64,000 nucleotides of DNA, taken from Microglena sp. YARC. Lineage: Eukaryota; Chlorophyta; Chlorophyceae; Chlamydomonadales; Chlamydomonadaceae. The notes beneath the pieces are model-generated. The model was not told the DNA's origin. It did no database searches and saw nothing but the letters and a program-made list of their open reading frames with translations. A program made the translations under genes and the position numbers. The stretch spans positions 1 to 64,000 of the forward strand of contig JAJSRW010000604.1 in the NCBI GenBank assembly GCA_022414725.1, read 5' to 3'. Positions 24,617 through 64,000 of the stretch are shown here, piece after piece. Positions within the stretch are counted from its first letter, which is position 1; each line of letters starts with the position of its first letter.

Positions 24617-24668
24617 TTTGATTTCGGAGCCTGTTCCTTTTCCCCTCGTTTTTTTTTCTTCTTTCACG

Positions 24669-31387: not shown

Positions 31388-32685
31388 CTACCCCCCCGAG
31401 GCCGACCTATAGTGTCCAAGCCTCCTCCTCCGCTGCTGCTGTTGCTGCAGCAACAACTGGTGTAGGTCTATCTCTGGGTTGGCAGCGCTAGCAGGCAAGG
31501 GCACCCAGCTTCCAAGCTCGTGGTCAGGGTCAGAGCCATAGGTGTCACTTCCGGCATGGATGGAACCCTGGGAGCTAGGGCGGTGGAGGGAGGGGGGAAT
31601 AGAGGCCCCCGACCCTAGATACAAGGGGGCCCGGGGGGGTAGGGGGGCGGGGGCCATGGGGATGCGTCCGTGGCCGCCGAGCTTAAATAGGTGGAAATCC
31701 GGGTCTAGGGCCGGTGGGGGTATGCCGTGTGGGTGGAGGAGGGGGTGGGATTGGGAGTCAATGTTGGCTTGCCACTGCTGTGAGGGGCGGGTTTCCATTT
31801 GTGTAACTTCGATGTTGACGACGTACTTCTCGTAGATCCAGCCGGCGTTGCTCTTCCACCACTTCTCGGCCTCTGTGGGGGCAACAGGTGATGAGGTGAG
31901 CTATTGCTTGTTCAAATGTGATGGTTTGCTTGTTTACTTGTCAAAGTGTGGACGTGTGGTGAGTGGTGGAGTGGGGCGATCGTCTTCGTTTGTTTGTTTG
32001 CCTCCTGGTTTCCTACTCCTATAGCTCCCCTCTCCCCTCCACCCGCAACCGATGCATGAGCTCATTGCACAACCCCCACCCCTACCACTAAAACAAATAC
32101 CCACCCCCACCCTTACACCACCACACTCACCTGACCCATTGAAGTGCTGCTTGGAGAAGCGGATCTTGACGAGCTCAGGCTTGCCACTGGGGTGCCTGTG
32201 TAGCCAGAAGTGGACCCCCATATGCACCTCCTCCTCCCAGCTCTCCGCCCCTACAAACTCCTGCTCTTGCCTCGCTCTATGCTCCACCGCAGCTTGGGCG
32301 TACCCCCCATAGGTCCTATGTCCTAGGCCCTCCTTGGGACCCACCTCCAAGGCCCCAGATTCTCCATTGAAGTGGCGGAGCAAATGACCGACACCGGCAA
32401 TGCTGCCAAGGCTGTAGGAAGCCACACTGGAGCCAGAGTCTGGGGTGGGGATTCCGGCGGACCCGCGCTTGAGGGGAGGGGGGGGGCAGGCCTTTGCCAT
32501 GCTAGGCTGCCATGCTGCCAGGCTGGTCAGCTGTTGGGGAGGGATATTCATCTGGGAGAAGTGGACAGGATGAACTGCAGAGGAGGGGTGGGGTGAGGGG
32601 GTTTGGTTTGGTAGGGGTGAGGTGGGATGCACTAGGGATTCCGGCGGATGCGCGCTTGAGGGCGGGGGGGAGCTCGGCTGGCAAG
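31388..32685 (-). CDS. Gene K last two exons: BRX domain and C-terminus
   Basis: Exon 32,685-32,131 is Pro/Ser-rich, then reads ESWEEEVHMGVHFWLHRHPS, GKPELVKIRFSKQHFNGS. It splices at GTGAGTG to exon 31,872-31,388, which begins EAEKWWKSNAGWIYEKYVV. This is the BRX signature (W-E..V......G..EL..IRFS...F....AE.WW......YEKY). BRX domains mediate dimerisation and partner binding in BRX and PRAF proteins. A poly-Gln tract and RRRRLGHYRSASGG end the protein. A diverged duplication of the exon start (GCGCGNRTCCGCCGGAATCC at 32,640 and 32,455) lies inside the longer exon. Confidence 0.9.
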
Positions 32686-35600
32686 CTGCAAGTGGGGTGG
32701 GGTGAGGTGGGGAGGGGCAAGGTGGGGTGGAGTGGAGTAGGTGTGTCCTAATCTTTGTCAATATCGCCATCCTCATTATTATCCTCATCCTTATCGTTAT
32801 TATCATCCCAACCACTAGCTTGATGATTCTCACAATCATCCTCATAATCATTCCCCGAAACATCATTACCCTCACCCTCATCATGATTATAGGGGCCCGA
32901 GCTCGTTGAAACAAGAAGGTTCGGGGTTCAAATCCCTTCGGGAGCACTTTAGTGTTCCGCCATGGTAGCTTTGTCTAGGTAAAATAGCAGCCTGTTATCT
33001 ACCGCCATATCTAAGACGGGGCTCCCTTAATACCACGCCCCACCCTGCGATATCATTACTTTAGGGGGGCGGCCACCCACCTCTTGTTGTGTCCATGGAG
33101 AACGCCCGCCGATGGCGTGAGGCCTTGCTCTTGGGTGGGCAGACCTGTGGCATGCCCGCCACTTGCACCCCTCCCCCTCCCCCCCCCACATTCAAATTCC
33201 CTGGGCTGCCACCACTGCCCATACCCATGGGCGGGGAACGGGGGGTGGCATCTGCTGAGAAGGACTGATTCTTGCTGATGGAGTGGGGATGGGGGATGGC
33301 AACTTTGCTCTGGACGCTGGCAGGGGTCATCCTGCCTATGCCAGTCACTGGGGACGAGCCACCCCGGGGGGTCAGGGGGGCAGCCCCTCCGCCCCCGGCC
33401 TGGCCAGAGGGGGCCCCGCCCACTCCGGGCGTGCCTCCGTAGAAGAAGGGAAGCATGCGAGGGATCTGGCCCACCTGGCGCTGGTTGGCAGCAGCCATCT
33501 GGGGTTGGGTTGCGCTGGAGTAGTCACCCCCGCCTCGACTACCCACACTGCCGGAGGGCCCCGCGCCTCCATTGGAGAAGGGGGAGGTGGAGGAGGAGGA
33601 GGGTTCCCCTGCCCTAGGAGTGAGCCCTACACCGAGGGAGGACTTCCCTGCGGAGTGGGGTAGAGGCTGCGACTGGCCATGATGGAGGTTTGGATGCTGA
33701 GGGTGAGGCTGGCTCTGCTGCTGCAGTGCCAGCGTTTCCATCAGCTGCCGTTGAAGCATTGCCACCTGCTGCTGCAGGGATGTGTTTTCTGCTGCTAGGC
33801 GGGCGAGGTTGGATGGGAGGTGGCCTGTGGGTTGGGTGGATTGGGTGGGGGGGATGTGGCGGGTTGGCTGGGATGATGCGATGTGATTTGGTAGGGGGTG
33901 GGCGTTTGCTACTCCGCGGCGGGAGGGTCGGATGGGGGGAGGCCTGTGGTTGGGTTGCAACAAGGCTTCCCTCTCTGGCACTACCTCACGAAGGCCAAAG
34001 GATCAAGGGAAGCAACCAAAAACAGACCAGACCCCCCCCCCCCACCACCACCACCACCACCACACACACACTTTAAAAGGCAAAATCAGTCCAGTCCAAA
34101 CTAAATTCCCTGCCCTGCCCTACCTTTCTCTATCAAACCAAACCCCTCCCCAGCTGTCCTCTCTTGGGTTTAGGAACGAACTACAACTTCAGCATGGACA
34201 CATAGATACGCCAATAACAACGACATAGGCAATACAACATTGCCACTATCCCTCTTCCTCCCGCACACCGTCCCTCAAGTCATTGCGCTCCAAATCATGT
34301 GCGTGCCAAAGCTACAGAGCTCAAACCTGCGCCCCCATGCTCCCGGCCACATACTTTAACTCAAGTCAAGAACAACACACGAGACCTAGGGCCAACTTCT
34401 AGGAGACCCACCAGTGCACCCTACTATTTGGTGTGGAATGGCTAGGTTGGTGCTGTTGCTCACCTTGGTCATCTGGCCCAGGTGAGGAAGTGGCGTAGGT
34501 GGGCATGTTGTAGTTGACTTGAGTCATGTGTATAAGGTTGGTTGTGGTTATGTTGGGTTGGGTAAGGTCGAGAGGTGTGGGGCTGGGTTGCATTGGCCTT
34601 GTCGAGATCCTTATGTACTATGTTTGTGTTGCTTACCTTGATCAGCTGGCGCAGGTGAGGAAGTGTCATAGAGAGGGCCCGGTGAGGGAGTGGCGTAGAG
34701 AGACATGGTGGAGTTGACTTACATCATGTGTGTAAGGTTGGTTGTGGTTAGGTTGGGTGGGGTAAGGTCGAGCGTGGGGCTTGGTTGCATTGGCCTTGTC
34801 GAGATCCCGGAACCCCAAAACTTTGATTTATCACAAGGTGCTGGCAGGGTCATCAATGAAAGACCTGCCAATCCCTACTCGGCATCGTTTATGGTCGAGA
34901 CTACGGTGTGGGGCTTGGTTGCATTGCCCTTGTCGAGATCCGTATGTAATATGGTTGTGTTGCTTACCTTGATCACCTGGCCCAGGTGAGGAAGTTTCAT
35001 AGAGAGGGCCCGGTGAGGGAGTGGCGTAGAGGGAGGACGTATTAGAGTCCATTTCTATCATGGAGGCCCCTGCAGGGGAGGTAGGGTCGCCCACACTGGG
35101 GCTGTTGGCGTCGCCATAGCGCCCCACCTGCAAGCAAAAAAGTGGTTGAGAGTGGTTGATTGTGGTTGATAGAGGTTGGTAGTGGTTGACAGTTGCTCTG
35201 AAGGCTTGGCCAGGCGAGTGGTTGTGAAGGCATGGTCAGACAAACCATAGAGTCCCTTGCATGCAAGCTAGGAAAGCCCACACAGGGGCTGTGAGCGTCA
35301 CCATAACGTCCCACCTGCAAGCAAAGGAGTGGTTGAGAGTTGTTGTGAAGGAATGGCCAGACAAGTGGTTACGAGTGGCTGAGAGTTGCTCTGAAGACAT
35401 GGCAGGTGGTTGCAAGTGGTTGAGAGTGGTTGAGAGTTGCTGTGAAGGAATGGCAAGGCAAGTGGTCGAGAGTGGTTGATAGTTGCTGTGAAGGCATGGC
35501 AAGGCAAGTGGTTGAGAGTGGTTGATAGTTGCTGTGAAGGCATGGCAAGGCAAGTGGTTGAGAGTGGTTGATAGTGGTTGATAGTTGCTGTGAAGGCATG

Positions 35601-38600
35601 GCAAGACAAGTGGTTGAGAGTGATTGAGAGTTGCTGTGAAGGCATGGCAAGGCAAGTGGTTGAGAGTGGTTGAGAGTTGCTGTGAAGGCATGGCAAGGCA
35701 AGTGGTTGAGAGTGGTTGTGAAGGCATAGGCAGAGAAGTGGATAAGAGAGGTTGAAAGTGGTTGTTGGGCACATACACGCAGTGAACTAGCACATCAACC
35801 AGGGTACTTCAAATGGCCAGATTGGCCAGCCCTATAGCGCACTTGAAAACAAAAAAACTGCGCTTTGTAGTGCAAAAAGCGCAAACATTGCTTGCTGCGC
35901 CCACAGGGGGTTGCAAAAAATGCGCGTAAAGGGGGTAAGAACTAAACTGCGCAGAGGGGGTCAATAAGTCAGCGCTCAAAAGCGCGCGCTTTGAATTTCC
36001 CTGATGTCAACACCTGTAACAACACCTAAACAATGCACAAACCAGCGTCCTACCACCATTGACCTCGACCCGCTGAGAAGTGGTCGAGTGGTTAAGAGTG
36101 GTTGGAAGTGGTTTGGCACACACAAACCATACACACACCTACAACCATGCATAAACTAGCATCCTACCTCCATTGATCCCAACCCGCAGAGAAGTGGTTA
36201 CGAGTGGTCAAGTCTGTGGTTGGAAGTGATTTGGCACACACAAACCACACACGCACGCCTACAACAAAACACAAACTAGCGCCCCACCTCCATTGACCTG
36301 GCCCCGCCGAGAGACTTAGGCACAATATGGACCATTCCAATCTCGCCCTCTCCAATATCCAAGAGATGTGATTTGCGGCGGCCTGCTTGTGGTGCTTGGC
36401 CTGATATGCTTGCTGCTGCATAGGACCCTTGGGGTCGACAGCTGAGAGAGGCCTGCAGGCCAAGAGAGGGTGAGCGTGGGGGGGTTGAGGGAAATGAGGG
36501 TGAGGGGGGTTGAGGGATATGAGGGAGGTGAGAGTGAGAGTGAGGGGGGTTGGGGGTTGGGGGGAGGGAGGTTGACGGTGAGGGGGGGGGTGGGGGGGAT
36601 GGTGAAGGATATGAGGGAGGTGAGAGTCAGAGTGAGGGGGGGTGATGGTTAGGGGGGGGGGGGGGGAGAGTAAGGGTCAGGGGGGTTGAGGGATATGAGG
36701 GAGGTGAGGGTGAGAGTGAGGGGGGCTGAGGGATGTTGAGTGTGAGGGGGTTGAGGGCACTACAAGACAGGCCTGCTAATGCTAGCCTCTGCATAGGACC
36801 CTTGGGGCCAACAGCTGATGGAGGCTCGCAGACAAATTGAGGGCGAGCGTCGAGAAGGTTGGGGTAGGTGAGAGTGAGGGGGTTGAGGGATATGAGGGAG
36901 GTGAGAGTACGAGGGAGGGGGGGTGAGGGAGGTTGAGTGTGAGGGGGTTGAGGGATATGAGGGAGGTGAGAGTAAGGAGGGAGGGGGGTGAGGGAGGTTG
37001 AGTGTGAGGGGGTTGAAGGATATGAGGGAGGTGAGAGTAAGAGGGAGGGGGGGTGAGGGAGGTTGAGTGTGAGGGGGTTGAGGGCACTTTCAAAACAGGC
37101 CTGTTATGCTAGCCTCTGCATAGGAACCTGGGGGCCGACAGCTGGGGGAGACCTGCAGACCAAGAGAGGGTGAGTGTGAGGGCACTCTTTGTTTTTGGCG
37201 GAGCCCCCCCCTCTGGGTCACCGCTTTGTCCAAGTGCCTGTCTGTCTGTCGGTCACGTTCCAACCCTGGGCCTCGTAAACCCACTCTCCACCCTTCAAGA
37301 CCTTGGACAGCTCAAACCTCGCTGTCAATTTCGAATCCACGCTCCGCCAATATTCTGCGTCACTTGCGATGCGCGTAGGACTTTAAAAGTTGGATTTTGA
37401 TTCGGTATCGGAAGGTCAATTTTCAGGTTGGGAGGTAGGATTGGGACTTTGGGGCGAACTCAAGTTTACTGCTTTACCAGTAGATTCAGAGGCTGAGGCT
37501 GAAGTGCAGCTTCAGACCCGTAGTAGTGGTCCGATAAGCCTTTCGTACCGTGGAAATTTCACTCAGGCAGATGCTCCCTGGTCTCTTTACTGCAACCAAT
37601 GGGTGCTTAGGGGAGTGGAAGGGGGGTGGTTGTGGTGGTACAGGTGGAGGAGTAGTTTGGAGAAGAGCAATAACAGGGTGGTGGAGGTTGAACTTACCAA
37701 TACCTCACCCCCAAAGCTAAACGTTTTTTTATTATGGGGTTTGACATTTTTTTTTTGAAACATACCGAAATGGCAGGCCCAAGCCTCAACCGCCCCAACT
37801 GACACCAACCTTGAAAGCTACACAACTCGTCGAAATCTGCGCCGCACGAGAAATTATATGGTTGTATGCGTTCGACTTTGCATGCGCTTGCATTGTTATC
37901 AAACTTGATTTTTTCCGTCGGGGGGTGGGGTCGAAATCCCTCCGAACCGCACTACAGGGGAAACTAGTAAGGGTTTTGACGTTTTTGTAAAGCTTACCGT
38001 AATTGGAGGGGAAACTGATATGGGCTGCTGCTGTTGATGAACTGGAGATTGGAGCGCCTGCTCAGCCTTCAGCACCCGAAGCACCTCAGCAGCGTTGGGG
38101 CGGAGGGACGGCTCCATGCTCCAACAGAGGCGTAGGCATGCTAGCAGGTTCTCGGACGGGATAAGCATGCTGGGATACATGACTGAGGCGTTTAGAGAGT
38201 AGGGGGACTGGCCTAACACCGTCAGCCTCCTGACCTCATCATCGTTACTGGCGTGCATGAATGGCCGACAGCCAGTGACCAGCTCGGCCAGCAAGGCGCC
38301 CAGGGAGTAGATATCGGAAGGCGGGCGGCGCGTCCTGTGGTGGTTGATCAACACCTCAGGCGCAGTGTAGCGCACAGTCTGTGTGTGGCCCTTGGATGGG
38401 CTGGCATGGGGCATGATGCTTGTAGTTCGCTGGAAGTTAGCAATGCCGAGGTCGCTGATCACACATGTCCTGCCGCCACCCGGATGATTCTCCGTCAACA
38501 CGTTACCTGGCTTGAGGTCGCCGTGCACCAGCGGGCGCAAGCCATGTGAATGCATGCGCAGCAGCCCCTGGACCACTTGCACGCCCATGTCTAGACGGTC

Positions 38601-43720: not shown

Positions 43721-43726
43721 TCTTAT

Positions 43727-43761
<35 letters not shown>

Positions 43762-43869
43762 TTATATGCACAAACACAATATACAATGTATATACAATAC
43801 ACAACACACAATATACGGTATATAATGATTTTTTGTTTAATTATATTATATAATAGTATATAAATAATA

Positions 43870-45330: not shown

Positions 45331-45387
45331 GGGGGATCCCACCATCCACATGAGAGGCACCCACACACCAGCGTGATGGCTCCTCCC

Positions 45388-51300: not shown

Positions 51301-52666
51301 CATCCCCCCTTATGCATACCCCGGGGTCTGAGTTGCCAGCAGACAAGCTGCGTGTGAGGCGTGGCGTGTGCTCCTTGGTCTTTATTGGCGTCCCAACGTC
51401 ACTTTTTTCGCTTGTGCGCCTGCCTGTCCTTAAATGCACACACACAGACACTATTGAATTGCACACCGCTGCATCCCCCCTTATACATACCACGGGGTCC
51501 GAGTTGCCAACAGACAAGCTGCGTGTGAGGCGTGGAGTGCGCTCTTTGGTCTTTATTGGCGTCCCAACGTCGCTGTCAACACTCGTGCGCCAGCCTGTCC
51601 GTGAGGTGCACACACACACACTATTGAATTGCATACCCCTGCATCCCCCCTTATACATACCACGGGGTCCGAGTTGCCAACAGACAAGCTGCGTGTGAGC
51701 CGAGGCGTGCGCTGCTTGGTCTTTATTGGCGTCCCAATGTCGCTGTTGAGGCTTGTGCGCCTGCCTGTCCTACATGTACCGTCTGTTGCGTCCTCAGAGA
51801 CTACGGTGGATAGATTCCCATTGGCGGGGCTTGCCGCGCCGTTGAGTGAGTTGCGAGGGTTGAGTGAGAGGCGGAGGTTACTGAGGCCAGTGAACTTGGT
51901 CCAGACGGAGGTGAGGAGGCTGCTTGGCTGTGGCTGTGGAAGTGTGGGGGGGTTGGGGTTGGTTGGTGGGTTGGTGGGTATTGTGGGAGGAGGGGAGGGT
52001 GAGTTGGTACTGGGATTGAGTGAGATGCGAGTGGTGAGAGAGGCGGAGGTTACTGAGGACAGTGAACTTGGTCCAGATGGAGGTGAGGAGGCTGCTTGGC
52101 TGTGGCTGTGGAAGGGGGGGGGGGTGGGGGGGGGGGGGGGATGTGTGTGTATGTGTGTGTGTGTGTGTGTGGGGGGGGGGGGATAAGTTGGTACTGGATT
52201 GGCAAGACGTTGAGTGAGTTGCGAGTGGTGAGAGAGAGGCGAGGAGGTTGCTTGGCTGTGGGGAGGGGAGGGATGTGTGTGTGTGAGGCGGAGGCGGAGG
52301 GGGGGGGGGGGGTACAGGTGTTTGTGTTTGTGTTTGTGTTTGTGTGTGGGGGGGGGGAGGGTAAGTTGGTACTGGGATTCACAAGACGGTGAGTGAGTTG
52401 TGAGTGGTAAGGGAGAGGCGGAGATTACTGGGGCTGGTGAATTTGGTCCAGACGGATGAGAGGAGGTTGCTGGGCTGTGGAGAGGGGGGGGGGGATAATA
52501 TATTTATGTATGATAATGTAGGGTAACATAGATAATGTAGAAAATGTAGATAACGTAGATAATGTAGGGTAACGTAACCTTCATTCATTGCATCAAGTGA
52601 CCCCCAATCCTCAGGCTTCATGGTTGCTGTGGCTTGCACCTGCGGTATCCCTCCACCATCCCCCCC

Positions 52667-52705
<39 letters not shown>

Positions 52706-53158
52706 TTTGATAATGAAGAGTGACGTAGATTACCTTTCTCAATGCATCAGGTGATGGCCACCAATCTTCAGGGTTCATGGTTGGTGTGGCTTCCACCCGC
52801 AGTGTCACTTCCCCCCCCCCCCCCCCCCTTGATAATGTAGTGTCAAGTAGATCACCTTTCTCAATGCATCAGGTGATGACCCCAAATCCTCAGGGTTCAT
52901 GCGTTGGTGTGGCTTGCGCCCCGGTGTCACCCGCCCCCCCCCACCCCACCCTCCCCCACACACACCCCCTCCCCCCACACACACCCACCCCCCACACACA
53001 CATGATAATGTTGTGTAACGTAGATCACCTTTCTCAATGCATCAGGTGATGACCCCCAATCCTCAGGGTTCATTGTTGGTGAGGCTTGCGCCCGCGGTGT
53101 TGCTGCTCTCATCCTGGATGCTCCATAAGCTGCGTAGCGCCCTTGGGGACCAATATGC
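45388..53158 (-). CDS. Gene R tail exons
   Basis: Seven exons encode a low-complexity tail. 53.1 kb: HIGPQGRYAAYGASRMRAAT. 51.8 kb: LLTSVWTKFTGLSNLRLSLN and GTPIKTKQRTPRLTRSLSVG. 50.2 kb: an acidic run, DEESSESDVSEVDSQT. 48.6 kb: four NGPYSKSELA repeats. 47.1 kb: RTRKRPISHRRTNSMPWSGS. 45.4 kb: SSGMQQPMFGQQDNTSGEEE, then the stop. RxxS-type sites suggest phosphorylation, but this is inference. Confidence 0.8.
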
Positions 53159-56100
53159 CTATTGAGTGGGTTGGGATGGGTCGGGGTGGTTAGGTTGGAG
53201 TGGGTTGGAGTGGGTTGGAGTGGAGTGGAGTGGAGTAGGTTGGGATGGGTTTGGGTTGGAGTGGAGTGGGATGGGATGGGTGGGGTGGGGTGGATGGGTT
53301 GGGTTGGAGTGGAGTGGGTTAGGTTGTAATGGGTTGGGTTGGGTTGGGTTGGGTTGGGTTGGTTGGGTTGGGACGGGATGTGATATGATGTGAAGGGATA
53401 TGATGGTATGGGGTGTGATGTGATGTGATGGTGTGATGGGTGTGTGATGGATGTGTTGGTGTGGCTTGCCCCCGCGGTGTACCTGCTGTCCTCATGGATG
53501 CTCCATAAGCTGCGCAGCGCCCTTGGGGACCTACATGCCTATTGAGGGGGTAGAGATGGGTTGGGTTGGAGTGGATTGGGGAGGGGTGGAGTGGGTTGGG
53601 ATGGGATGGGGCGGAGTGGGTTGGAGTGGGTTGGAGTGGAGTGGGTTGGGGAGGGTTGGGTTGGCGCGGGGCGGGGCGGAGTGGGTTGCAGCAGAGTGGG
53701 TTAGGTCGAAGTGGGTTGGAGTGGGTTGGGATGGGATGGGGATGGGGTGGGATGGGTTGGAGTGGAGTGGTTGGGATGGGTTGGGTTGGGTTGGTTGGGT
53801 TGGGTTGGGTTGGGTTGGGTTGGTAGGGTGGGTGGGGTGGAGTGGGTTAGTTTGGTTTGGTTTGGTTTGGAACGGGATGTGATATGATGTGAAGGGATAT
53901 GATGGTAAGGGGTGTGATGGGATGTGTTGGTGTGGCTTGCACCCGCGGTGTACCTGCTGTCCTCCTGGATGCTCCATAAGCTGCATAGCGCCCTTGGGGA
54001 CCAATATGCCTATTGAGTGGGTTGGGATGGGTTGGGTTGGAGTGGGTTAGGTTGAAGTGGGTTGGAGTGGGTTGGAGTGGAGTGGAGTGGGTTAGGTTGG
54101 AGTGGGTTGGCGTGGGGCGGGGAGGAGTGGGTTGGAGTAGGTTGGAGTGGGTTGGGTTGGTTTGGGTTGGGTTGAGTACGATGTGATGTTGTATAATGGG
54201 ATGGGTTAGTTCATCCTCCTCATCCTCGTGATAATCACCGCCATCATCATCATCATAAACCCTGAACACATTATAAACCCTGAACACATCATCATAAACC
54301 CTGAACACATTATCATTATCCCTGAACAGATCATCATAAACCCTGAACGCATTATCATGAACCCTGAACACATCATTATAAACCCTGAACACATCATCAT
54401 AAACCCTGAACGCATTATCATAAACCCTGAAACCCACCTGGCCATGGAGGGCGAGTTAGGATTGACTCCTATGTACACCGGCCCATGCGCGTTGGGCCTA
54501 GCTACTGGAAAATTAGTGTTGGGGGCCACTGGGACCGCCGCGGGGGGGCCCTGCCACCCCTTGGTGATGTACGAGCCTGCGGCCCCCACCATGCCCATGG
54601 CAGCTGTTGTTGGGTACCATGCTGGGCCGTTGAACGAGGAGTGGGTGTTCTTTTTCTGGGGGACGTGCTCGCAGACTGCTAGGGTGTGACTGCCGCCGCA
54701 GGAGATGTGGAGGACTTTCCGGCCTTCCGTAGCTCCCACAACCTGTGTGTGTGTGTGTGTGTGTGCGTGTGTGTGTGTGCGTGTGTGTGTTCAGACAGCT
54801 AGGGTGTGACTGCCACCACAGGAGATGTGGAGGACTCGCCTGCCTTCTGTAGCTTCCACAACCTGTGTGTGGGGGGGGAGGGGGAGGGGGGGGGAGGTTT
54901 GAGTTGAATTTAGAGGTGTGTGTGTGTGTCCTTGCAGCTAGAGTGTAGGAAGGTAGGAAGGTAGGTAGGCAGGTAGGTAGGTAGGTAGGCAGGTAGGAAG
55001 GTAGGTAGGTAGGTAGGTAGGTAGGTAGGCAGGTAAGTAGGTAGGTAGGTAGGTAGGTAGGTAGGTAGGTAGGCAGGTAGGTAGGTAGGTAGGTAGGTAG
55101 GTAGGTAGTAGTAGGCAGGCAGGTAGGTAGGTAGGTAGGTAGTAGGCAGGCAGGTAGGCAGGTAGGCAGGTAGGTAGGTAGGTAGGTAGGTAGGTAGGTA
55201 GGTAGGTAGGTAGGTAGGTAGGTAGGTAGTAGGTAGGTAGGTAGGGCAGGTAGGTAGTAGGTAGGTAGGTAGGTAGCAGGTAGGTAGGTAGTAGGTAGGT
55301 AGGTAGGTAGGTAGGTAGGTAGGCAGGTAGGTAGGTAGGTAGGTAGGTAGGTAGGCAGGTAGGCAGGCAGGCAGGTAGGTAGGTAGGTAGGTAGGTAGGT
55401 AGGTAGGTAGGTAGGTTTTGAATTTAAAATAACACTGACCTGTGGCAGGTTGTAGTCCTTAGGCTACTTGGTACTGATGCCCAGCTGGCCGTGGCAGCCC
55501 CGCCCCCATGTCATCAGACCACTGCGCCGAGTTTTACCAGGCAGCAGCCCATTCCCCGCCCCATTCCCCACCACCCCAGCTTCGTTTTGGACTTGAATTT
55601 GAATTTGAATTTGAAATAAGACTGACAAGTGGCGGGTTGAAGTCCTTAGGCGAGTTTCCCTTTAGTGCTGATGCCAAGCTCGCCATGGGAGCCTCGCCCC
55701 CTTGTCAATAGCCCACAGCGCCGGGTTTTGCCATGCAGCTCACCATTACCTGCCCCATTCCCCACCACCTCAGCAACGTTTTGTACTTGAATTTGAATTT
55801 AAAATAACACTGACCTGTGGCAGGTTGAAGTCCTTAGGCGAGTTTCCCTTAGTGCTGATGCCCAGCTGGCCGTGGAAGCCTCGCCCCCATGTCAATAGCC
55901 CACAGCGCTGGTTTTTGCCATGCAGCTCCCCATTACCTGCCCCGTTCCCCACCACCTCAGCTACGTTTTGAACTTGAATTTGAATTTGAAATAACACTGA
56001 CCTGTGGCAGGTTGAAGTCCTTAGGCGAGTTTCCCTTAGTGCTGATGCCCAGCTGGCCGTGGGAGCCCCGCCCCCATGTCAATAGCCCACAGCGCCGGGT

Positions 56101-58458
56101 TTCGCCAGGCAGCTTCCCATTGCCCCCCAACTTGCTCGCCACCACAGCGACATGGTGCATGCCGCATGAAACCTCCTCGATGAACATACCAAACAAGTTG
56201 CCGTCCACCTGGGTTGGATGAAGACAGCCCTCCCAGGGGACTTCCTTCTTCTCCTCTGGGTTGTATGCGCCTGGGTGGGCAGGTGGCAGGTGGGCATTAA
56301 TCAGTTTGGTAGTTTTAGGTTGCCGTCCACCTGGGTTGTATGAAGACAGCCCTCCCAGGGGACTTCCTTCTTTTCTTCTGGGTTGTATGCGCCTGGGTGG
56401 GCAGGTGGGCAGGTGGCAGGTGGGCATTAGTCAGTTTGGTAGTTTTAGGTTGCCGTCCACCTGGGTTGGATGAAGACAGCCCTCCCAAGGGACCTCCTTC
56501 TTTTCTTCTAGGTTGTATGCGCCTGGGTGGGCAGGTGGGCAGGTGGGTAGGTGGCAGGTGGCTGGGTGGGGAAGGTGGGTAGGGGGGGGTAGGTGGGCAA
56601 GTGGGCAGGTGGGTAGGTGGGCAGGTGGGTAGATATGTAGGTGGGCAGGTGGGCAGTAGCAGATGTCAATTGGCAGGTTGGTGGTTTTTAGGTGGCTGTC
56701 CACCTGAGTTGGTTGCAGACGGCCTTCCCAGGCTACCTCCGTATTCTTATCTAGGTTGTATGTGCCTGGGAGGGCAGGTGGCAGGTTGATTTTAGCCAGT
56801 TTGGTGGTTTTAGGTCGCCCTCCACCTGGGTTGGATGCAGACAACCTTCCCAGCAACCTCCTTCTTTCCTTTTAGGGTGAATGGTGTAGGGTGGTGGGTG
56901 GGGGAAGGTGGGTGTGGGGAAAGGTGGAGGGCGGTGTAGGTGGGTGTGGGCGTGGGTGGGTGTGGGTGTAGGTGGTGTGGGCGTGGTGTAGGTGGGTGGG
57001 TGGGTGTAGGTTGGTGTGGTGGTGGTGGGTAGGTAGTGGGGAGGGGAAGGTCTGTATGTGTAATGCATGAGTGTTGATTCTGCTCACCTGTGGCGCCCAT
57101 CTGGAAGACATGGCCCTCGTGCGTGAGGGCAACCGTTAGGTTCCACCCACACGCCACCATAGCCACGTCCCTGCGTTCTAATACCCCCCTAACACGGGTG
57201 GGCAGCAGCCGACCAGCCTTGTCTCCGGTGCCCAGGCAGCCGTGGTGGTGATCAACCTTAGAGCTGAGAGAAGCTGCCTTGTCAGCGTTGCCGGAGGCAG
57301 TGGCTTGAGCGGCGCCGCGGATGTCGCCGGGCTCCTGCCAGCCTAGGTCACCGCCCCATGTGAAGAGCATGCCCCGGGCCACAACGGTGGGAGCTGTGGG
57401 GTGGAGGGGGGTGGGGGTTGGGTTGGGTTGGGTTGGGTTGGGTTGGGGGGTTTGGGGGAGGGATGGTGGCTCTGCCAGCCTAAGGTCACCGCCCCATGTG
57501 AAGAGCATGCCCCGGGCCACAACGGTGGGAGCTGTGAGGTGGAGGGGGGGTGGGGGTTGGGTGGGTTGGGTTGGTTGGGTTGGTTGGGTTGGGTTGGGTT
57601 GGGGGGGATGGGGGGCTCTTGCCAGCCTAGGTCACCGCCGCATTGTGAAGAGCATGCTCCGGGCTACAACAGTGGGAGCTGTGGGGTGGGGTGGGTGGGT
57701 GGGGTGGGGTGGGTTGGGGTTGGGTTGGGTTGGGTTGGGTCGGGTTGGGGGGGGGATGGGGGGCTCTTGCCAGCCTAGGTCACCGCCCCATGTGAAGAGC
57801 ATGCTCCGGGCTACAACAGTGGAGCTGTGGGGTGGGGTGGGGTGGGGTGGGGGGGGTTGGGTTGGGTTGGGTTGGGTTGGGTTGAGGGGGGGATGGGGGC
57901 TCTTGCCAGCCTAGGTCACCGCCCCATGTGTGAAGAGCATGCCCCGGGCCACAACAGTGGGAGCTGTGTGGGTGGGGGATGGGCGTGGGGGTGGGTGGGG
58001 TGGGGGCTGGGGGGAAATGGTTAAGTGGGGGGGAGGCAGGTGGCTTAAGCAGCGCCACGTATGTCGCCGGCGCTATTGCCAGCCGAAGTCGCCGCCCCAT
58101 GTGAAGAGCATGCCCCGGCCACAACAGTGATAGCTATGTGTGTGTGTGTGTGGGGTGGGTGGGTGGGGGGGGGGGGAGTGGTTAAGTGGGGTGGGGCAGG
58201 TGGGTTGAGCGGCGTCACCAATGTCGTTCAGCCTATTGCCTGCCAAGGTAACAACCCCATGTGAAGAGCATGCCGCGGGCCACAACGGTGTGGAGCTGTG
58301 GGGTGGGTGGGGGGGGGGGGGGGAAGTGGTTAAGTTGGTTAAGTTGGGGTGGGGCAGGTGGCATGGGCGGCATCGCCGACGCCGGGCTATTGCCTGCCAA
58401 GGTAACAACCCCATGTGAAGAGGCATGCCGCGGGCCACAACGGTGGGAAGCTGTGTGT

Positions 58459-58489
<31 letters not shown>

Positions 58490-59206
58490 GGGGGGGGATC
58501 TTGCCAGCCTAGGTCACCGCCCCATGTGAAGAGCATGCCCCGGGCCACAACGGTGGGAGCTGTGAGGTGGAGGGGGGTGGGGGTTGGGGTTGGGTTGTTG
58601 GTTGGGTTGGGTTGGGTTGGGTTGGGTTGAGTTGGTTGGGGGGGGGATGGGGCTCTTGCCAGCCTAGGTCACCGCCCCATGTGAAGAGCATGCTCCGGCT
58701 ACAACAGTGGAGCTGTGGGGTGGGGTGGGGTGGGTGGGGTGGGGGGGGGTTGGGTGGGTTGGGTTGGGTTGGGTTGGGTTGGGTTGGGGGGGGGGGGGGA
58801 TGGGGGGCTCTTGCCAGCCTAGGTCACCGCCCCATGTGAAGAGGCATGCTCCGGGCTACAACAGTGGAGCTGTGGGGTGGGGTGGGTGGGTTGGGGGGTT
58901 GGGTTGGGTTGGTTGGGTTGGGTTGGTTGGTTGGTTTGGGTTGGGTTGGGTTGGGGGGGATGAGGGCTCTTGCCAGCCTAGGTCACCGCCCCATGTGAAG
59001 AGCATGCCCCGGGCCACAACAGTGGGAGCTGTGGGGTGGGGGATGGGGCGTGGGGGGTGGGTGGGGGGTGGGGGAAATGGTTAAGTGGGGGGGAGGCAGG
59101 TGGCTTAAGCAGCGCCACGTATGTCGCCGGGCTATTGCCAGCCAAAGTCGCCGCCCCATGTGAAGAGCATGCCCCGGGCCACAAACAGTGATAGCTATGT
59201 GTGTGT

Positions 59207-59238
<32 letters not shown>

Positions 59239-59846
59239 GTGGTTAAGTGGGGTGGGGCAGGTGGTTGTGCGCGGCGTCACCAATGTCGTCAGCCTATTGC
59301 CTGCCAAGTAACAACCCATGTGAAGAGCATGCCGCGGGCCACAACGGTGGGAGCTGTGTGTGTGTGTGTGTGTGGGTGGTGGTGGGTGGGGGGGGGGGGG
59401 ATCTTGCCAGCCTAGTTTACCGCCCCATGTGAAGAGCGTCCCCCGGGCCACAGCGGTGCGAGTTGTGTGTGTGTGTGGGGTGGGGGGAGTGTGTGTGTGT
59501 GGGGTGGGGGGGTGGTGTGGGGGGGTCTTGCCAGGCCTACTTCACCGCCCCATGTGAAGAGCATGCCCCGGGCCCACAGCGGTGGGAGGTGTGTGTGTGT
59601 GTGTGAGGAGGCGTGTGTGTGTGTGGGGGGGGGGGGGGGGGGGGATCTTGCCAGCCTACTTCACCGCCCCATGTGAAGAGCATGCCTCGGGCCACAGCGG
59701 TGGGAGCTGTGGTGGGGTGGGGTAAGGAGGTGTTGTGTGGGGGGGGGTGGGGGGGAGGATCTTGCCAGCCTAGTTCACCGCCCCATGTGAAGAGCATGCC
59801 CCGGGCCACAGCGGTGGGAGCTGTGTGTGGGGGGGGGGGGAGGAGT

Positions 59847-59880
<34 letters not shown>

Positions 59881-62800
59881 TGGAGGGCACTTGCCAGCCG
59901 AAGTCGCCGCCCCATGTGAAGAGCATGCCGTGGGCCACATCGGTGGGAGCTGTGGGGTTGGGTTGGGTGGGGGGGTAGAGGAGGAGATGGGGGGAAGTTG
60001 GGAGGGGGGGGGGGGGGGAGTAATGGGTGGTTTGTTCTTGTCAGCCAATCCATTTGTCCCCATGCAAATAGCATTCCAAGAGGCCACGCAAGTGTGCTTG
60101 GGGGGGCGGACGGGCAGGGGCGCGTGTGTGGGTGGTGGGTGGTGGGTGTGTGTGTTTGTGTTGTGTGTGTGTGTGGGGGGGGGGGGGGGGTACAATTGTG
60201 TGTGTGTTGTAGGATATGTGTATTTTTTGTGTATGTGTTTTCTTGCCAGCCAGATCACTGCCATATAATGACCAGGTGTTCGAGGAAAGCCACGTTTGAA
60301 TCAATGGGAGGAAGCTCATTATCACAATAGCATAATTATCACAACTTAGTAGCTGTGGAGTGTGTGTGCTGCGTTGTGGTGGAGGTGGTACCGGGGGTAG
60401 CGGGGGGGCAGGGGGGGTATTTAGGGGGAGGGGGGGTGAAAGGGGTATAATTACATGTGGGTTGGTGGTGGGTGGGTGGGTGGTATTTACCAGGTGTTTG
60501 AGGAGCACATTAGAATCAGCGGAAGAGCTCATGATAACATTGGCTCGCTGACATGTCCCCAAGGCTGCGGCTTAGGCTAGGGGGCGGATCTGGGCGATAG
60601 GGGTATAATTACCTAGTGTGAGTGTGCGTGATGAATGCGTGTTGGGGGAGGGGAGGGGGGGGGGGGGGGGTATAATTACCAGGTGTTTGAGGGAGCACAT
60701 TTGAATCCACGGAAGAGCTCATGATGGCATTGGCTCCTGTCATGTCCCCAAGGCTGCGGCTAGGGTAGGGGGCGGAGGTCCGCGATTAGGGGTATAATTA
60801 CCTAGGTGTGAGTGTGAATGTGAAAGTGTGTTGGGAGGGGGAGGGGGAGGGGGGGGTATAATTACCAGGTGTTTGAGGGAGCACATTAGAATCAGCGGAA
60901 GAGCTCATGATGGCATTGGCTCCTGTCATGTCCCCAAGGCTGCGGCTAGGGTAGGGGGCGGAGGTCCGGGCGATAGGGTAAATTACCTAGGTGTGAGTGT
61001 GAATGTGAATGTGAATGTGTGTTGGGGTGGGAGGAGGGGAGGGGGGGGTATAATTACCAGTGTGTTTGATGGCGAGCACATTAGATCAGCGGAAGAGCTC
61101 ATGATGACATTGGCTCGTGACATGGATCCCCAGGCTGCGGCTTAGGTTAGGGCGGAGGTCCGGGCGATAGGGGTATATAATTACCTAGGTGTGAGTGTGA
61201 ATGTTGAATGTGTGTTGGGGGAGGGGGAGGGGTGTGTGGGGGGGGGTATTACCAGGACGTGTTTGAGGGAGCACATTTGAAATCCACGAAGAGCTCATGA
61301 TGGCATTTTGCTCCTGTCATGTCCCCAAGGCTGCGGCTAGGGTTGGGGGCGGAGGTCCGGGCCAGGTCTGCTCTAGGGGGAGGCCCAGAGAAGGCGTGAG
61401 AGGGAAGGGACCCCACCGTCGATCGCAGTGGTGGGTGTGGACCGCACAGGGTGGAGCCGGGTGGGATTTGAGGGAGTCCAGTCCAGGTGCTGACCTGGAA
61501 ACCACTGAATCCGAAACCGGCAGGGAAAGTACGCGGTGGGGCTGGAAGGTAGGTGTTTTCTGGGAAGACAGCGAGGCATGTACTGCTTGTTGTTAGTATG
61601 CTGGGGATCCAGCTCGGGGGCTGCCCACGCCCTCCCGTCGACGGGTGGTTGGAGTGTCGTGGGGGGGGGGACACTTGGAGAGGGGGAACTTACCTGTGTG
61701 TGTGTGTGTTGGGGGGGGGGGGGGGGGGATGAAAGTCTTATTTCCAGGCAGTGAGTATTGGGATTGGCGTTGAAATTTATCGAAATGAGAAACAAGCATT
61801 AAGAGAGGACCAAGAGAAAGGCGGACATGTGATTTCAAAAAAGCAGAAACTAATTTTTTCTGAATGCAGAAATCGATTTTCACAAATGAGAAATGAGTGA
61901 AAGAAATTTTTCGAATGGGAAATCCAGCATTGTGAGGAGTCGAAAATCAAGGGACAATGATTCTTTTCAAAAAGCAACAAATTAATTTTTTCCAAATGGA
62001 GAAATTCGGATTTTCAAAATGAGAATGAGGAGAAAATCATTTTTGTCAAAGTGAGAAATCATTTTTGTCAAAGTGAGAAATCATTTTTTTAAAGTGAGAA
62101 AGCAATATTAAGAGGGGAGATGAGAGAAAGGGACCAAGTGGTTACAAAAAAGCAGCAATTATTTTTTCGCTAATGAGAAATCAATTTTTCGAAGTGAGAA
62201 TCAGCATTAAGAGGAGATGAGAGAAAGGGAGGAGTGAAAGCAGCAATTAGTTTTTTTCGTTAATGAGAAAATCAATTTCGAAGTGAGGGAAATCACATTA
62301 AGAGGAGATAGAGAGAAAGGGCGGAGTGAAGCAGCAGCTTTGTCTCGTCCAAATACATATAATGCACTTTGCAACTAATAGTAGTGTTTTGAACAAGTTA
62401 AACATTAACTCAATATATTATAGTGTAACAATTAATATTAGGTTTATCAAAGTAAAATGGACCCGAAAACCAAACCTTACACCGTCGTTAGAGCAGCGCC
62501 GGTTCGAGAGATTGAGGGGAGGGGGCAACCTGTGGAGGGAGGGAGGGGAGGAATGGTGGATGGAGGGGGAGGAGGAGGAGAGAAAAGAGCGAGGGGGGAC
62601 AGTTTGAAATTGAGACAGAGGAAGGACCAGTGCACTATGGACACATACCTGGCCCTCAGTGGTAGCGCGACACGGTTTTGGGAGACTGAGGGGAGGTTGC
62701 TGTTATAGGAGGGGGAGGAAGGAGGGATGGAGGGAGGAGGAGGAGGAGGAGGGAGGAGGAGAAAGGGGGTGGGGGGAAGGGGGGGGGCACCAAGTTTTAA

Positions 62801-64000
62801 ATTGAGACAGAGAAGCACCAGTGCACTATTGGGACACATACCTGAGGCGTTAGTGTTTTAGGTAGAAGCGACACGGTTTTGGAGACTGGAGGGAGGTTGC
62901 GATATAGGAGGGGGGAGGAAAGGGATGGGAGGGAGGAGGAGGAGTGAGGAGGAGGAGAAGGGGGTGGCTGGGGGGAAAGGGAGGGGGGGCAAACAAGTTT
63001 TAAATTGAGACAGAGAAGCACCAGTGCACTATGACACATACCTTGGGCGTAGTTAGAGCGACACCGGTTTTGGAGACTGAGGGAGGTTGCGTATAGGAGG
63101 GGGGAGGAAGGAGGGATGGGAGGGAGGAGAGGGGAGAGGAGAGAAGGGGAGTGGGGGGAAGGGGGGGGGCACAAGTTTTAAATGAGACAGAGAAGAACCC
63201 CAGTGCACTATGGGACACATATCCTGGCGTAGAGCGGACAACGGTTTTTAGAGATGAGGGGAGGTGCGTATAGGAGCGGGGGAGGAGAGGATGCTGAGGG
63301 AGGAGAGGAGGAGGAGGAGGAGGAGGAGAAGGGGGGTTGGGGGAAGGGGGGGGGCACAAGCCGGAGGTTTAAATTGGAGACAGAAGAAGCAGCCAGTGCA
63401 CTATGGACACATTAACCTGGGCGTATAGAGAACGACACTGGTTTGAGACCTGAGGGGGGGTTTGCGTTATAGAGTAGGCGCGGGAGGAAGGAGGCATGGG
63501 ATGGAGGAGGAGGAGGAGAAGGGGGGTGGGAAAGGGGGGGGGGGGGGCACAAGTTTTAAGATTGAGACAGAAAAGCCACCCAGTGCACTATGTGCGACAC
63601 ATACCTGGGCGGTAGAGCTACACGGTTTTGGAGACTGAGGGGGAGGGGGCATGGAGGGGGAGAGTGGGAGAGAGGGGGGGGAGGGAAGGGAGGAGGAAGG
63701 AGGCAGGAGGTGACGGTGGCGGTGGGCGTGGGGTGGTGGTGGGGTTGGGGGGGGAGTCTTTTCATTGGAGACTGAGAAAGCACCAGAAGCTGTATGGAAA
63801 CATACCTTAGATTGATTACTAGTCAGCGCGTTTCGGAGAGTAGTGGGGAGCTTGAGCTATTCTAGGAGGGGGGAGGATGCACTGACTGGGCTGCCGACGC
63901 TGTGTGAGACGTCCGGGTCGCAGTCCATGACGTCTGTTGGCGGCGGACTCATGTTTGGCTCTCCCCTGCCATGGGTTAGGGGTGGGGTGATGTAGGAGGG
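45388..64000 (-). CDS. Gene R: RCC1-repeat protein with long Ser/Pro-rich tail (5' partial)
   Basis: Exons: about 61600-61253, then 57393-57088, 56270-56002, 54742-54438, 53158-53029, 51927-51661, 50316-50132, 48864-48421, 47199-46922, 45464-45388. A likely 5' exon lies near 63.95 kb. All junctions from 61,253 to the stop at 45,388 have GT/AG and keep one frame. RCC1 motifs: GMLFTWGGDLGWQ, DHHHGCLGTGDKAGRLLP, VACGWNLTVALTHEGHVFQM, VSCGMHHVAVV, LLTWGRGSHGQLGI, ISCGGSHTLAVC. RCC1 repeats form beta-propeller blades used in GTPase exchange or protein binding. The tail (53-45 kb) is disordered, with acidic and Arg/Ser clusters. No FYVE domain follows the propeller, unlike in PRAF proteins. Fewer than seven blades are visible, so blades may lie in unresolved 5' exons. 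Confidence 0.8.
45465..46300 (-). repeat. Acceptor-edge copies of the last gene R exon (about x6)
   Basis: ACACACAG/GTAGCAGCGGGATGC and AGCAGCCTATGTTC recur at about 45,464, 45,615, 45,780, 45,940, 46,120 and 46,265, spaced about 150-180 bp. The spacers are (TG)n. Each copy preserves AG and the first about 40 exon bases. Confidence 0.9.
46500..46921 (-). repeat. Donor-edge array of the 47.1-kb exon (about 20 units)
   Basis: The 19-20 bp unit GGCTTGGCACCAAGGTAGGT (or GGCAGGT) repeats the exon end TTGGCACCAAG/GTAGGT. Some units have GC in place of GT, and some carry TTTGATATGTGGC instead. Confidence 0.9.
47200..48150 (-). repeat. Acceptor-edge copies of the 47.1-kb exon (about x7)
   Basis: CCCTTCTGCAG/TTGGGACC, CAGAGGCCTGGCACAGCC and CTCCAACCCACAAGCTCC recur near 47,200, 47,412, 47,533, 47,650, 47,773, 47,896 and, weakly, 48,130. 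Spacing is mostly 117-123 bp. The copy at 47.27-47.41 kb extends further into the exon. Confidence 0.9.
48985..49185. repeat. 54-bp intronic repeat
   Basis: Three copies of AACAAAGGGGTAACCCTGGG, GGCTCCCGCCCCCCAGAAGG, GGGGGCTCAGCCAT. Internal GGGGGCTCCCGCCCCC is palindromic. Confidence 0.9.
49190..50131 (-). repeat. Donor-edge copies of the 50.2-kb exon (about x6)
   Basis: GAGAGYGATGTCTYYGAGG, TTGACTCTCAAACAGC and GTAGGTGTATAGGG recur at roughly 180-190 bp spacing, with donors near 50,131, 49,962, 49,782, 49,575, 49,400 and 49,190. Confidence 0.9.
50317..50985 (-). repeat. Acceptor-edge copy of the 50.2-kb exon and intronic minisatellite
   Basis: CACAG/CTATCCCCATCACG and the next roughly 120 exon bases are duplicated at 50,485-50,606. 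50,620-50,985 is a 60-63 bp minisatellite (GGTTAGGGTTGTTAGACTGA, TAAGGGTGGTCAAGGAGGT). Confidence 0.9.
51130..51660 (-). repeat. Donor-edge copies of the 51.8-kb exon (x4)
   Basis: GGCGCACAAGC, GACGTTGGGACGCCAATAAA, CGCAGCTTGTCTGC and GGTATGCATAAGGGGG recur about every 170 bp, with donors near 51,660, 51,485, 51,317 and 51,145. About 120 exon bases are included in each copy, and the coding frame GTPIKTKERTPRLTRSLSAG survives in all four. Confidence 0.9.
51928..52490 (-). repeat. Acceptor-edge copies of the 51.8-kb exon (x4)
   Basis: CCACAG/CCAAGCAGCC, CTCCGTCTGGACCAAGTTCA and AACTCACTCAACGTC recur near 51,927, 52,095, 52,255 and 52,475, with poly-C or (CA)n tracts (gene strand) upstream of each AG. 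Confidence 0.9.
52560..53028 (-). repeat. Donor-edge copies of the 53.1-kb exon (x4)
   Basis: ATGAACCCTGAGGATTGG, CCTGATGCATTGAGAAAG and GTGATCTACGTTACA recur near 53,028, 52,855, 52,730 and 52,578. A long poly-C (52,662-52,706) separates two copies. Confidence 0.9.
53159..54200 (-). repeat. Acceptor-edge copies of the 53.1-kb exon (x3) with (TGGGT)n spacers
   Basis: CTCAATAG/GCATRTTGGTCCCCAAGG, GCGCTACGCAGC and TTATGGAGCATCC recur near 53,158, 53,534 and 54,008. On the plus strand the spacers are long GGGTTGGAGTGGG repeats. Confidence 0.9.
54240..54437 (-). repeat. Donor-proximal 21-24 bp repeat
   Basis: About nine units of TTCAGGGTTTATGATGATGTG start directly at the donor of the 54.6-kb exon (GTGGGTTTCAGGGTTTATG), so the array was seeded from the first intron bases. 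Confidence 0.85.
54438..54742 (-). CDS. Gene R last RCC1 exon
   Basis: It is 305 bp and begins VVGATEGRKVLHISCGGSHT, LAVCEHV, closing the propeller. It then becomes Pro/Ala-rich and ends NSPSMA(R) at GTGGGTTT. Confidence 0.9.
54743..54945 (-). repeat. Acceptor-edge copies of the 54.6-kb exon (x2 to 3)
   Basis: CACACACAG/GTTGTGGRAGCTAC and GTCCTCCACATCTCCTG recur near 54,742 and 54,863. A short third remnant (TACACTCTAGCTGCAAGG) lies near 54,935. Confidence 0.8.
54946..55416. repeat. (GGTA)n tetranucleotide microsatellite
   Basis: About 470 bp of GTAG repeats with scattered GCAG and GTAGTAG variants lie within an intron of gene R. Confidence 0.95.
55430..56001 (-). repeat. Donor-edge copies of the 56.1-kb RCC1 exon (x4)
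   Basis: TGGGCTATTGACATGGGGGC, GGCCAGCTGGGCATCAGCAC, AACCTGCCACAG and GTCAGTGTTATTT recur with donors near 56,001, 55,814, 55,626 and 55,439, a constant 187-188 bp spacing. Confidence 0.95.
56002..56270 (-). CDS. Gene R RCC1 exon
   Basis: It is 269 bp and reads GAYNPEEKKEVPWEGCLHPT through VSCGMHHVAVVASK to LLTWGRGSHGQLGISTKGNS, PKDFNLPQ before GTCAGTG. The phase is consistent on both sides. Confidence 0.9.
56271..56880 (-). repeat. Acceptor-edge copies of the 56.1-kb RCC1 exon (about x5)
   Basis: CCCACCCAG/GCGCATACAACC, AAGAAGGAAGTCCCCTGGGA and GGCTGTCTTCATCCAACC recur near 56,270, 56,390, 56,521, 56,766 and, weaker, 56,870. The CACCTGCCCACC spacer repeats resemble a pyrimidine tract. Confidence 0.9.
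57088..57393 (-). CDS. Gene R RCC1 exon
   Basis: It is 306 bp. It enters PTVVARGMLFTWGGDLGWQE and ends VALTHEGHVFQMGAT before GTGAGC. It carries one full RCC1 repeat and the start of the next. The first roughly 50 bases are the source of the large acceptor array upstream. Confidence 0.9.
57394..59960 (-). repeat. Acceptor-edge array of the 57-kb RCC1 exon (about 19 copies)
   Basis: CACAG/CTCCCACCGTTGTGGCC, CGGGGCATGCTCTTCACATG and GGGCGGTGACCTAGGCTGGC recur about every 105-170 bp from 57,394 to 59,960. Copies near 58,080-58,440 and 59,150-59,310 vary (GGTTGTTACC in place of GGCGGTGACC). Degenerate traces continue to about 60,290. The spacers are, on plus, (GGGTT)n, (TG)n and poly-G. Confidence 0.95.
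60240..61252 (-). repeat. Donor-edge copies of the 61-kb exon (about x6)
   Basis: GACATGACAGGAGCCAATGC, CATCATGAGCTCTTCCG, TTCAAATGTGCTCC, AAACACCTG and GTAATTATACC recur with donors near 61,252, 61,060, 60,864, 60,678, 60,492 and 60,270. The copy joined to the exon has extra bases near 61,258 and 61,311 that break the frame seen in its siblings. Confidence 0.9.
61253..61600 (-). CDS. Gene R Pro/Ser-rich exon upstream of RCC1
   Basis: The frame reads VFPENTYLPAPPRTFPAGFG ... TSAPNPSRSLGDMTGA, then (from sibling copies) NAIMSSSVDSNVLPQTP before GTAATT. It joins the 57-kb exon in phase. The acceptor is not certain; CTTCCCAG near 61,567 or TTTCCAG near 61,499 are candidates. Confidence 0.6.
61740..62330. 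repeat. Diverged GAGAAATCATTTTT minisatellite
   Basis: Repeats of AGTGAGAAATCATTTTTGTC, ATTAAGAGGAGATGAGAGAA and AAAGCAGCAATTA occupy the intron. They resemble the 11-12 kb array in composition but not in exact unit. Confidence 0.7.
62331..62475. other. Unique AT-rich intron stretch
   Basis: No repeats or coding features were recognised. Confidence 0.4.
62476..63870 (-). repeat. Donor-edge copies, about 8 x 180 bp
   Basis: CCTCAGTCTCCAAAACCGTG, AG/GTATGTGTCCATAGTGCAC, TGGTGCTTCTCTGTCTC and a poly-C/CCTCC tract recur from 62.49 to 63.86 kb. The source exon is presumably the one near 63.87-63.95 kb. Indels change the frame from copy to copy. Confidence 0.85.
63860..63952 (-). CDS. Possible first or early exon of gene R
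   Basis: ATG at 63,952 opens MSPPPTDVMDCDPDVSHSVG, SPVSASSPLLE, then TAG. The sequence after it is homologous to the donor-edge copies, so a small indel may hide the true frame and donor (AAG/GTATGTTT near 63,797). The frame is also open upstream of the ATG towards the window end. Confidence 0.4.

Follow-up and report, generated by a model that had tools for sequence, protein, structure and literature searches.

The human interferon-induced 6-16 gene contains a minisatellite of splice donor sites, with a short unit and in one gene, and its tandem units, each with a donor site, resemble the donor-edge arrays described here. In the accessible text of PMC4974935 on the potato RdRp gene, a single tandem duplication across the acceptor edge is reported to have made a new intron, and the same text describes the Rogers model, in which introns are gained by AGGT duplication of exon sequence only. 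According to the available sections of a survey of plant and algal genomes (PMC3887541), C. reinhardtii and Volvox have an excess of tandem repeats close to their intron-exon junctions. Introners, which are elements inserting copies into many genes, change intron content genome-wide (PMC9860276, available portion).

The arrays that we describe in a chlamydomonadalean alga share features with each of these systems. As in potato RdRp, the acceptor units include the branch site, pyrimidine tract, AG and exon start. In contrast to one event in one gene, however, up to 18 copies were found in the alga, at donor edges and stop codons as well, and at nearly half of the sampled edges, and whereas a new intron was made in potato, the copies here seem to remain within the intron. 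With the Rogers model the alga shares a change of intron-exon structure by tandem duplication, but the units in the alga hold intron flank too, and one of 11 introns clearly shows the signature of that model. The alga resembles C. reinhardtii and Volvox, as those appear in the available sections of PMC3887541, in that its introns are rich in tandem repeats, more so towards their ends; the repeats there are described as short motifs, the main text has no word beginning with 'splice', and those sections mention no exon-edge copies of the kind found here. Intron content is altered genome-wide, as by introners, but each array is made of its own exon, matches to other edges amounting to 0/253 within the gene and 15/1368 across the loci of two families. 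The phenomenon therefore belongs to a known class, that of tandem duplications crossing exon edges, and what is new is that it is pervasive, multi-copy and two-sided. Among the titles and abstract openings listed in our literature search, which covered few subscription papers, none describes genome-wide exon-edge arrays.

Exon-edge copies in the RCC1/BRX gene

The window, by which we mean the whole stretch of 64,000 nucleotides that was analysed, makes up most of a small contig (C638, 64,309 bases) of the 568-Mb assembly. Frame analysis recognised 12 exons, coding for 1300 aa in total, of an RCC1/BRX gene on the minus strand (57393..31388), the exons being placed by frames and homologues as follows.

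57393-57088, 56270-56002, 54742-54438, 53158-53029, minus strand: exons 1-4
51927-51661, 50316-50132, 48864-48421, 36452-36288, minus strand: exons 5-8
35127-34968, 33824-33081, 32574-32131, 31872-31388 (stop), minus strand: exons 9-12

The RCC1 repeats and the BRX domain were each recovered across an exon join. The initial annotation had seen two minus-strand genes here, but because 5 of the 7 homologues found (among them proteins from Sanguina, Haematococcus, Gonium, Coccomyxa and Micractinium) have both domains, RCC1 and BRX are most likely parts of one gene. A same-species gene model for the second half was looked for and none was found. Exons 7 and 8 were translated apart, as their phases differ, and this mismatch means that at least one exon between them is still missing from the model. 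The 12-kb interval between these two exons contains a kinase-like sequence (37899-39897, minus strand, Pkinase E about 1e-22), which may be a nested gene or a pseudogene, and at 45261-45941 (minus strand) a repeated reading frame like GSSGMQQPMFC, which could represent edge copies of the missing exon. Exon 7 itself has an in-frame 33-base unit (NGPYSKSELAG) present four times; here, duplication within coding DNA survives where it is a multiple of three.

At each edge, 60 exon bases were compared with the adjacent intron, with a threshold set above 100 dinucleotide shuffles; in intron 7 (11968 bases), 4000 bases were scanned per side. Copies were found at 14 of the 23 edges, with 1-18 at each. 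With the addition of donor D0, for which the query was one of its own copies and a fixed threshold of 20 replaced the shuffles, 15 of 24 tested edges and 10 of 12 introns have copies. The arrays, all on the minus strand, are the following.

60273..61331, minus strand: D0 donor-edge array, real donor near 61253, four clear copies with splice points at 61058, 60866, 60680 and 60491 and one diverged at 60273
57472..59949, minus strand: A1 acceptor-edge array preceding the real acceptor (57393), 18 copies of a C-rich tract, AG and 58 exon bases
56333..56883, minus strand: A2 acceptor-edge array, 4 copies
55440..55874, minus strand: D2 donor-edge array, 3 copies
54803..54862, minus strand: A3 acceptor-edge copy, 1 copy
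53483..54009, minus strand: A4 acceptor-edge copies, 2 copies (54009-53954, 53538-53483)
52585..52916, minus strand: D4 donor-edge array, 3 copies
52040..52474, minus strand: A5 acceptor-edge array, 3 copies (1 weak)
50993..51550, minus strand: D5 donor-edge array, 4 copies
50537..50595, minus strand: A6 acceptor-edge copy, 1 copy
49192..50017, minus strand: D6 donor-edge array, 7 matches (5 full copies, 2 short)
36770..37150, minus strand: A8 acceptor-edge copies, 2 copies
35255..35314, minus strand: A9 acceptor-edge copy, 1 copy
34464..34696, minus strand: D9 donor-edge copies, 2 copies
33904..33943, minus strand: A10 acceptor-edge copy, the weakest (score 20 vs 15 in shuffles)
62662..63640, minus strand: exon-like edge array (...CCCAG|GTATGTG), 6 matches, upstream of the modelled exons and outside the 24 edges; its query was a consensus made by eye, used at a threshold of 14 without shuffles

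These results confirmed the observation of the initial annotation that introns contain copies of the adjacent exon edges. Its wording that almost every intron has them needs a correction, in that introns 10 and 11 (506 and 258 bp), the two shortest of the gene, have no edge copies. As a control, exon centres scored in 5 of 23 rows (D2, A4, D4, A6 and D9), where the exons are 130-269 bp long and are reached into by the unit, and none of 253 comparisons of window edges with the other introns of the same gene gave a match. In introns 1-6 and 8-11, 5715 of 10134 bases (56%) lie between the real edge and the farthest copy; copies scoring under 25 were left out of this share, and of the AG/GT tally for the window given below.

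Occurrence across the genome

Outside the window, we sampled the best 30 matches each of the CCT/cpn60 chaperonins and the kinesins, with 1.5 kb of flank on either side. One CCT-beta ORF of 528 aa is 100% identical to a EukProt protein, with Chlamydomonas eustigma (87%) next by identity, which makes the alga a chlamydomonadalean. The sample thus represents two gene families and not random genes, and some of its loci are paralogues or neighbours and not independent. The flank on the same side contained a further copy of the 40-base end piece of an exon match in 26 of 60 tests at the 5' end and in 24 of 60 at the 3' end, or 50 of 120 ends in all. In contrast, the end piece recurred in the opposite flank in 0/120 and in mononucleotide-shuffled flanks in 0/120, and the centre of the exon piece recurred in 3/120 tests. 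The initial annotation had proposed other genes of this genome as a check, and its observation was borne out in these two unrelated families. When splice sites were placed by a scoring rule, and not from RNA, copies were present at 51 of 116 edges (27 acceptors and 24 donors), with up to 8 within the flank; this count includes one stop edge (the donor side of L020) and one duplicate locus, and is 49/112 without those loci. The pattern was found on scaffolds C1-C6, five of which are 46-195 Mb long. Cross-locus edge matches numbered 15 of 1368, and the 12 listed were all between members of one gene family; L012, L025 and L028 look like paralogues from such matches. In the kinesin and HSP70 match tables, edge copies show up next to an exon as additional short pieces. 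At L069:2639-4018 (minus strand), a 459-aa open frame lies in a stretch with few local repeats (9/255 windows) and is possibly foreign DNA.

Some loci and copies were left out of particular analyses. The intronless L009 and L014 were omitted from the density, splice-edge, edge-versus-interior and cross-locus counts. L065, a duplicate of L051, was omitted from the spacing, AG/GT, unit, divergence, codon, edge-versus-interior, site-score, cross-locus and indel analyses, and the donor side of L020, being a stop edge, from the AG/GT, unit, divergence, codon, edge-versus-interior, site-score and indel analyses. Copies scoring under 28 or falling short of the edge were omitted from the AG/GT, unit, divergence, codon, site-score and indel analyses.

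Local duplication density was 0.29-0.44 in the outer 80 bp of exon pieces and fell to 0.03-0.07 deeper inside the exon, beyond about 160 bp. In the flank, it was 0.33-0.56 over the first 200 bp, with a peak of 0.46-0.56 at 80-160 bp from the edge, and 0.19-0.52 farther out, and six random 6-kb stretches gave 0.29 with wide variation. A copy was found nearby for 49 of 112 edges (44%), 107 of 290 windows in the flank interior (37%) and 29 of 89 random windows. The difference between edges and interior was not significant (p=0.21) in this comparison, in which interior windows were complexity-filtered and searched 0.7 kb each way, edges were unfiltered and searched about 1.5 kb one way, and the flank is not proven intron throughout. 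The initial annotation had made its reading depend on edge copies being commoner than ordinary intronic tandem repeats, and in the sampled loci they were not significantly so. The spacing between copies was commonest at 150-200 bp for edges and interior alike, with medians of 184 at edges, 164 in the interior (p=0.045) and 146 in random windows.

Copies were also found at 5 of the 18 ends judged to be true stop codons (28%). In L020, L083, L078 and L085 the alignment of the copy runs across the stop codon, and L010 is weak. These ends include two tubulin pairs with the same C-terminal sequence (L088/L089 and L090/L091). Six further ends were set aside as not surely stops (L080, L081, L084, L086, L087 and L092); five of the six had copies and are probably donor edges. 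The difference between splice edges (51/116) and stop ends (5/18) was not significant (p=0.30) in what is a small test with 60-base queries at stops and 50-base queries at splice edges. Duplication aimed at splice sites is thus not supported, and a moderate preference for them may exist.

Units, decay and splice signals of the copies

In all 44 families, the exon-edge unit, taken as the spacing to the nearest well-matched copy (in a few families not the nearest of all), holds both intron flank and an exon part. The exon-derived part has a median of 80 bp and a 90th percentile of 124, and its ratio to the unit is not clearly non-uniform in the 14 clean families (p=0.09). An acceptor needs a branch point and a pyrimidine tract upstream, whereas a donor needs only a few bases. 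The intronic part is at least 48 nt long in 23 of 23 acceptor families and shorter than 48 nt, down to 9 nt, in 5 of 21 donor families (p=0.019, at a cut chosen after the data were seen), while the whole distributions for acceptors and donors do not differ significantly (p=0.088). The longer intronic part at acceptors would be explained by the need of the exon-side acceptor to keep its branch point and pyrimidine tract, and the contrast runs in the direction predicted by survivorship.

The copies decay in a nearly neutral manner. In a pairwise count over 127 chromosomal copies, the exon-derived part has 90 indels, of which 83 are not a multiple of three; 31 of the 127 copies have a net frameshift over some 55 bases, and in-frame stops number 21 vs 25.4 expected. 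Divergence between copies is nearly flat by codon position (0.167/0.137/0.178), and that between copies and real exons is 0.110, 0.092 and 0.175, the pattern expected from free drift of the copy together with mainly silent change in the real exon. Exon-derived parts diverge less among copies (0.155) than intron-derived parts (0.258), and differences between real edges and copies are richer in synonymous changes than expected (521/347 vs 628/240; silent 347 vs 240). We read these two observations as reflecting a past as the real edge, a bias from anchoring and the low complexity of the intron, and some constraint or conversion may also act on the copies. Of 438 derived alleles, 148 are common to several copies, and therefore units copy units and are not each made afresh from the exon. 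The arrays thus have the properties of ordinary, minisatellite-like tandem repeats, with head-to-tail units, shared variants and no clear edge preference.

The initial annotation had described AG and GT as mostly preserved while the rest drifts, which is hardly true of these arrays. In the window, AG is kept at 0.97/0.87 vs 0.90 for the exon bases and GT at 0.94/1.00 vs 0.865; outside the window, the values are 0.949 for AG and 0.923 for GT vs 0.904 and 0.893 for neighbouring bases, with retention above neighbours in 19 of 24 and 16 of 22 families. As the excess is slight, we rejected the view of the splice dinucleotides as conserved islands. On a simple score in which a 2-base shift was allowed, 117 of 166 copies (68/91 acceptor, 49/75 donor) score within 0.5 of the real site or better, in agreement with the suggestion made earlier that duplicated edges provide decoy sites. 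The mean scores of copies are below those of real sites (1.93 vs 2.84 for acceptors and 3.59 vs 5.43 for donors), mainly where AG or GT has been lost. If the nearest copy were used, 52 of 57 edge families would suffer a frameshift or gain a stop, the other five, all acceptors, staying open in frame, and productive use of the alternative sites thus appears unlikely. The frame-breaking indels, the chance-level stops and the effect of the nearest copy on the frame led us to reject the copies as coding alternatives or alternative exons.

Origin of the arrays and choice of the splice site

The explanation that we prefer, with a probability of roughly 0.72, is that short tandem duplication is pervasive and is tolerated wherever the additional copies come to lie in non-coding DNA and the one on the exon side retains its full signals. 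Such duplication would be frequent in this chlamydomonadalean genome, with units commonly of about 150-200 bp, in introns and apparently elsewhere, and would presumably arise by slippage or unequal exchange. A duplication inside an exon would usually break the gene and be lost; one straddling an exon edge would place the surplus copies within the intron or beyond the stop codon and would be tolerated while the copy next to the exon body keeps a complete splice signal. Over roughly their outer 100 bp, exon edges would act as if they were intron and so collect arrays, introns would lengthen, and the copies would decay close to neutrally, provided that the spliceosome chooses the exon-proximal copy on both sides, as exon definition would. 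The proposal of the initial annotation that introns grow by tandem duplication of their own exon edges is supported, and edge arrays offer a concrete route for intron lengthening.

Alternatively, duplication could be linked to splice sites or splicing, for example by transcription-coupled breaks or R-loops at exon edges, so that edges are copied preferentially. The higher proportion of copies at edges than in interior windows (44% vs 37%) and at splice edges than at stop ends (51/116 vs 5/18), the highest flank density at 80-160 bp from the edge (0.46-0.56) and the enrichment of tandem repeats near junctions in Chlamydomonas and Volvox reported in the available sections of PMC3887541 would all fit such a link. 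However, neither of the two differences in proportion is significant (p=0.21 and p=0.30), interior units are of similar size, clear copies run across stop codons, and random stretches of the genome are nearly as duplicated, which makes this explanation rather improbable. It is much less probable that selection maintains the copies as decoy or alternative sites regulating splicing. Many of them do score close to the real site (117/166 within 0.5 or better), and AG and GT are slightly better kept than their neighbours, but the decay is near-neutral, the mean scores of copies lie below those of real sites, use of the nearest copy is disruptive in 52 of 57 families, and copy number and unit vary widely.

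We regard it as a shade less probable still that the introns were born when an exon stretch was tandemly duplicated across AGGT, as in the Rogers model, and that the arrays are the traces of this process. The first 11 bases of intron 8 are also those with which the next exon begins (score 22 vs at most 16 for other exons), but among the 11 introns the match is clear in this one alone, with intron 11 marginal (15 vs 14), and no intron end resembles the end of its upstream exon beyond the others; both signatures together (intron start like downstream exon start, intron end like upstream exon end) occur in 0 of 11. Furthermore, the copies hold intron flank and exon, not exon alone. Birth of this kind is rejected for at least 9 of the 11 introns by the start and end match test, and the earlier suggestion that introns here are born by edge duplication is thus not supported. 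The 11 bases shared by the start of intron 8 (36287) and the start of exon 9 (35127), GTGGGGCGCTA on the minus strand, could have been left by an insertion accompanied by short direct repeats. The least credible alternative is that the copies come from mis-assembled noisy long reads. The window does lie on a small contig (64,309 bases), and its homopolymers look noisy by eye; however, the same pattern is present on scaffolds C1-C6, the units are gene-specific, the copies differ by substitutions, many of which are shared between copies (148/438 derived alleles), deletion columns are rarer in the window copies (0.005) than in the others (0.024), and there is no reason to expect artefacts to fall at exon edges and on their own side alone.

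Two homologous proteins are contiguous across the joins D1/A2 and D2/A3, where A2 has 4 copies, D2 has 3 and A3 has 1, and therefore the exon-proximal edges must be those used at these joins. Frame and homologues in this one gene point to exon-proximal copies being joined on both sides, and we infer that the exon-proximal site is generally the one used. Pairing of sites across a short intron would favour the inner copies, and pairing across the exon the outer ones, so that the exon-proximal choice would fit exon definition in this alga. In the available text of PMC4378016, Volvox and Chlamydomonas were assigned intron definition because their introns are short, with averages of 373 bp in Chlamydomonas and 491 bp in Volvox. 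The median intron of this alga is 1030 bp (25 introns, measured roughly between matched exon pieces). A broader and more speculative reading, on which we would not bet at even odds, is that splice sites compete naturally throughout the genome, with the outermost copy always chosen on both sides, that the alga defines exons, and that a switch to exon definition let nucleosome-sized (150-200 bp) edge duplications accumulate, inflating introns to about 1 kb.

Duplicated edges are of use and also a hazard. Work on how duplicated sites are spliced has used hand-made constructs; should the sampled rate hold, this genome would provide natural tests in the thousands, with between one and eighteen copies in competition. 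Programs for gene finding and homology searching, on the other hand, can count edge copies as exons, as the additional short pieces in the kinesin table illustrate.

Other elements were noticed in the window. At 24597-29411 (plus strand), reverse transcriptase, RNase H and integrase domains lie in one 938-aa frame, which we take to be a Ty3/gypsy-like LTR retrotransposon, and one 24-base unit is found at both 24392 and 29452. A stretch of about 100 bases at 32899-33000, tRNA-like by eye, has at least 40 further matches in the genome and is perhaps a SINE.
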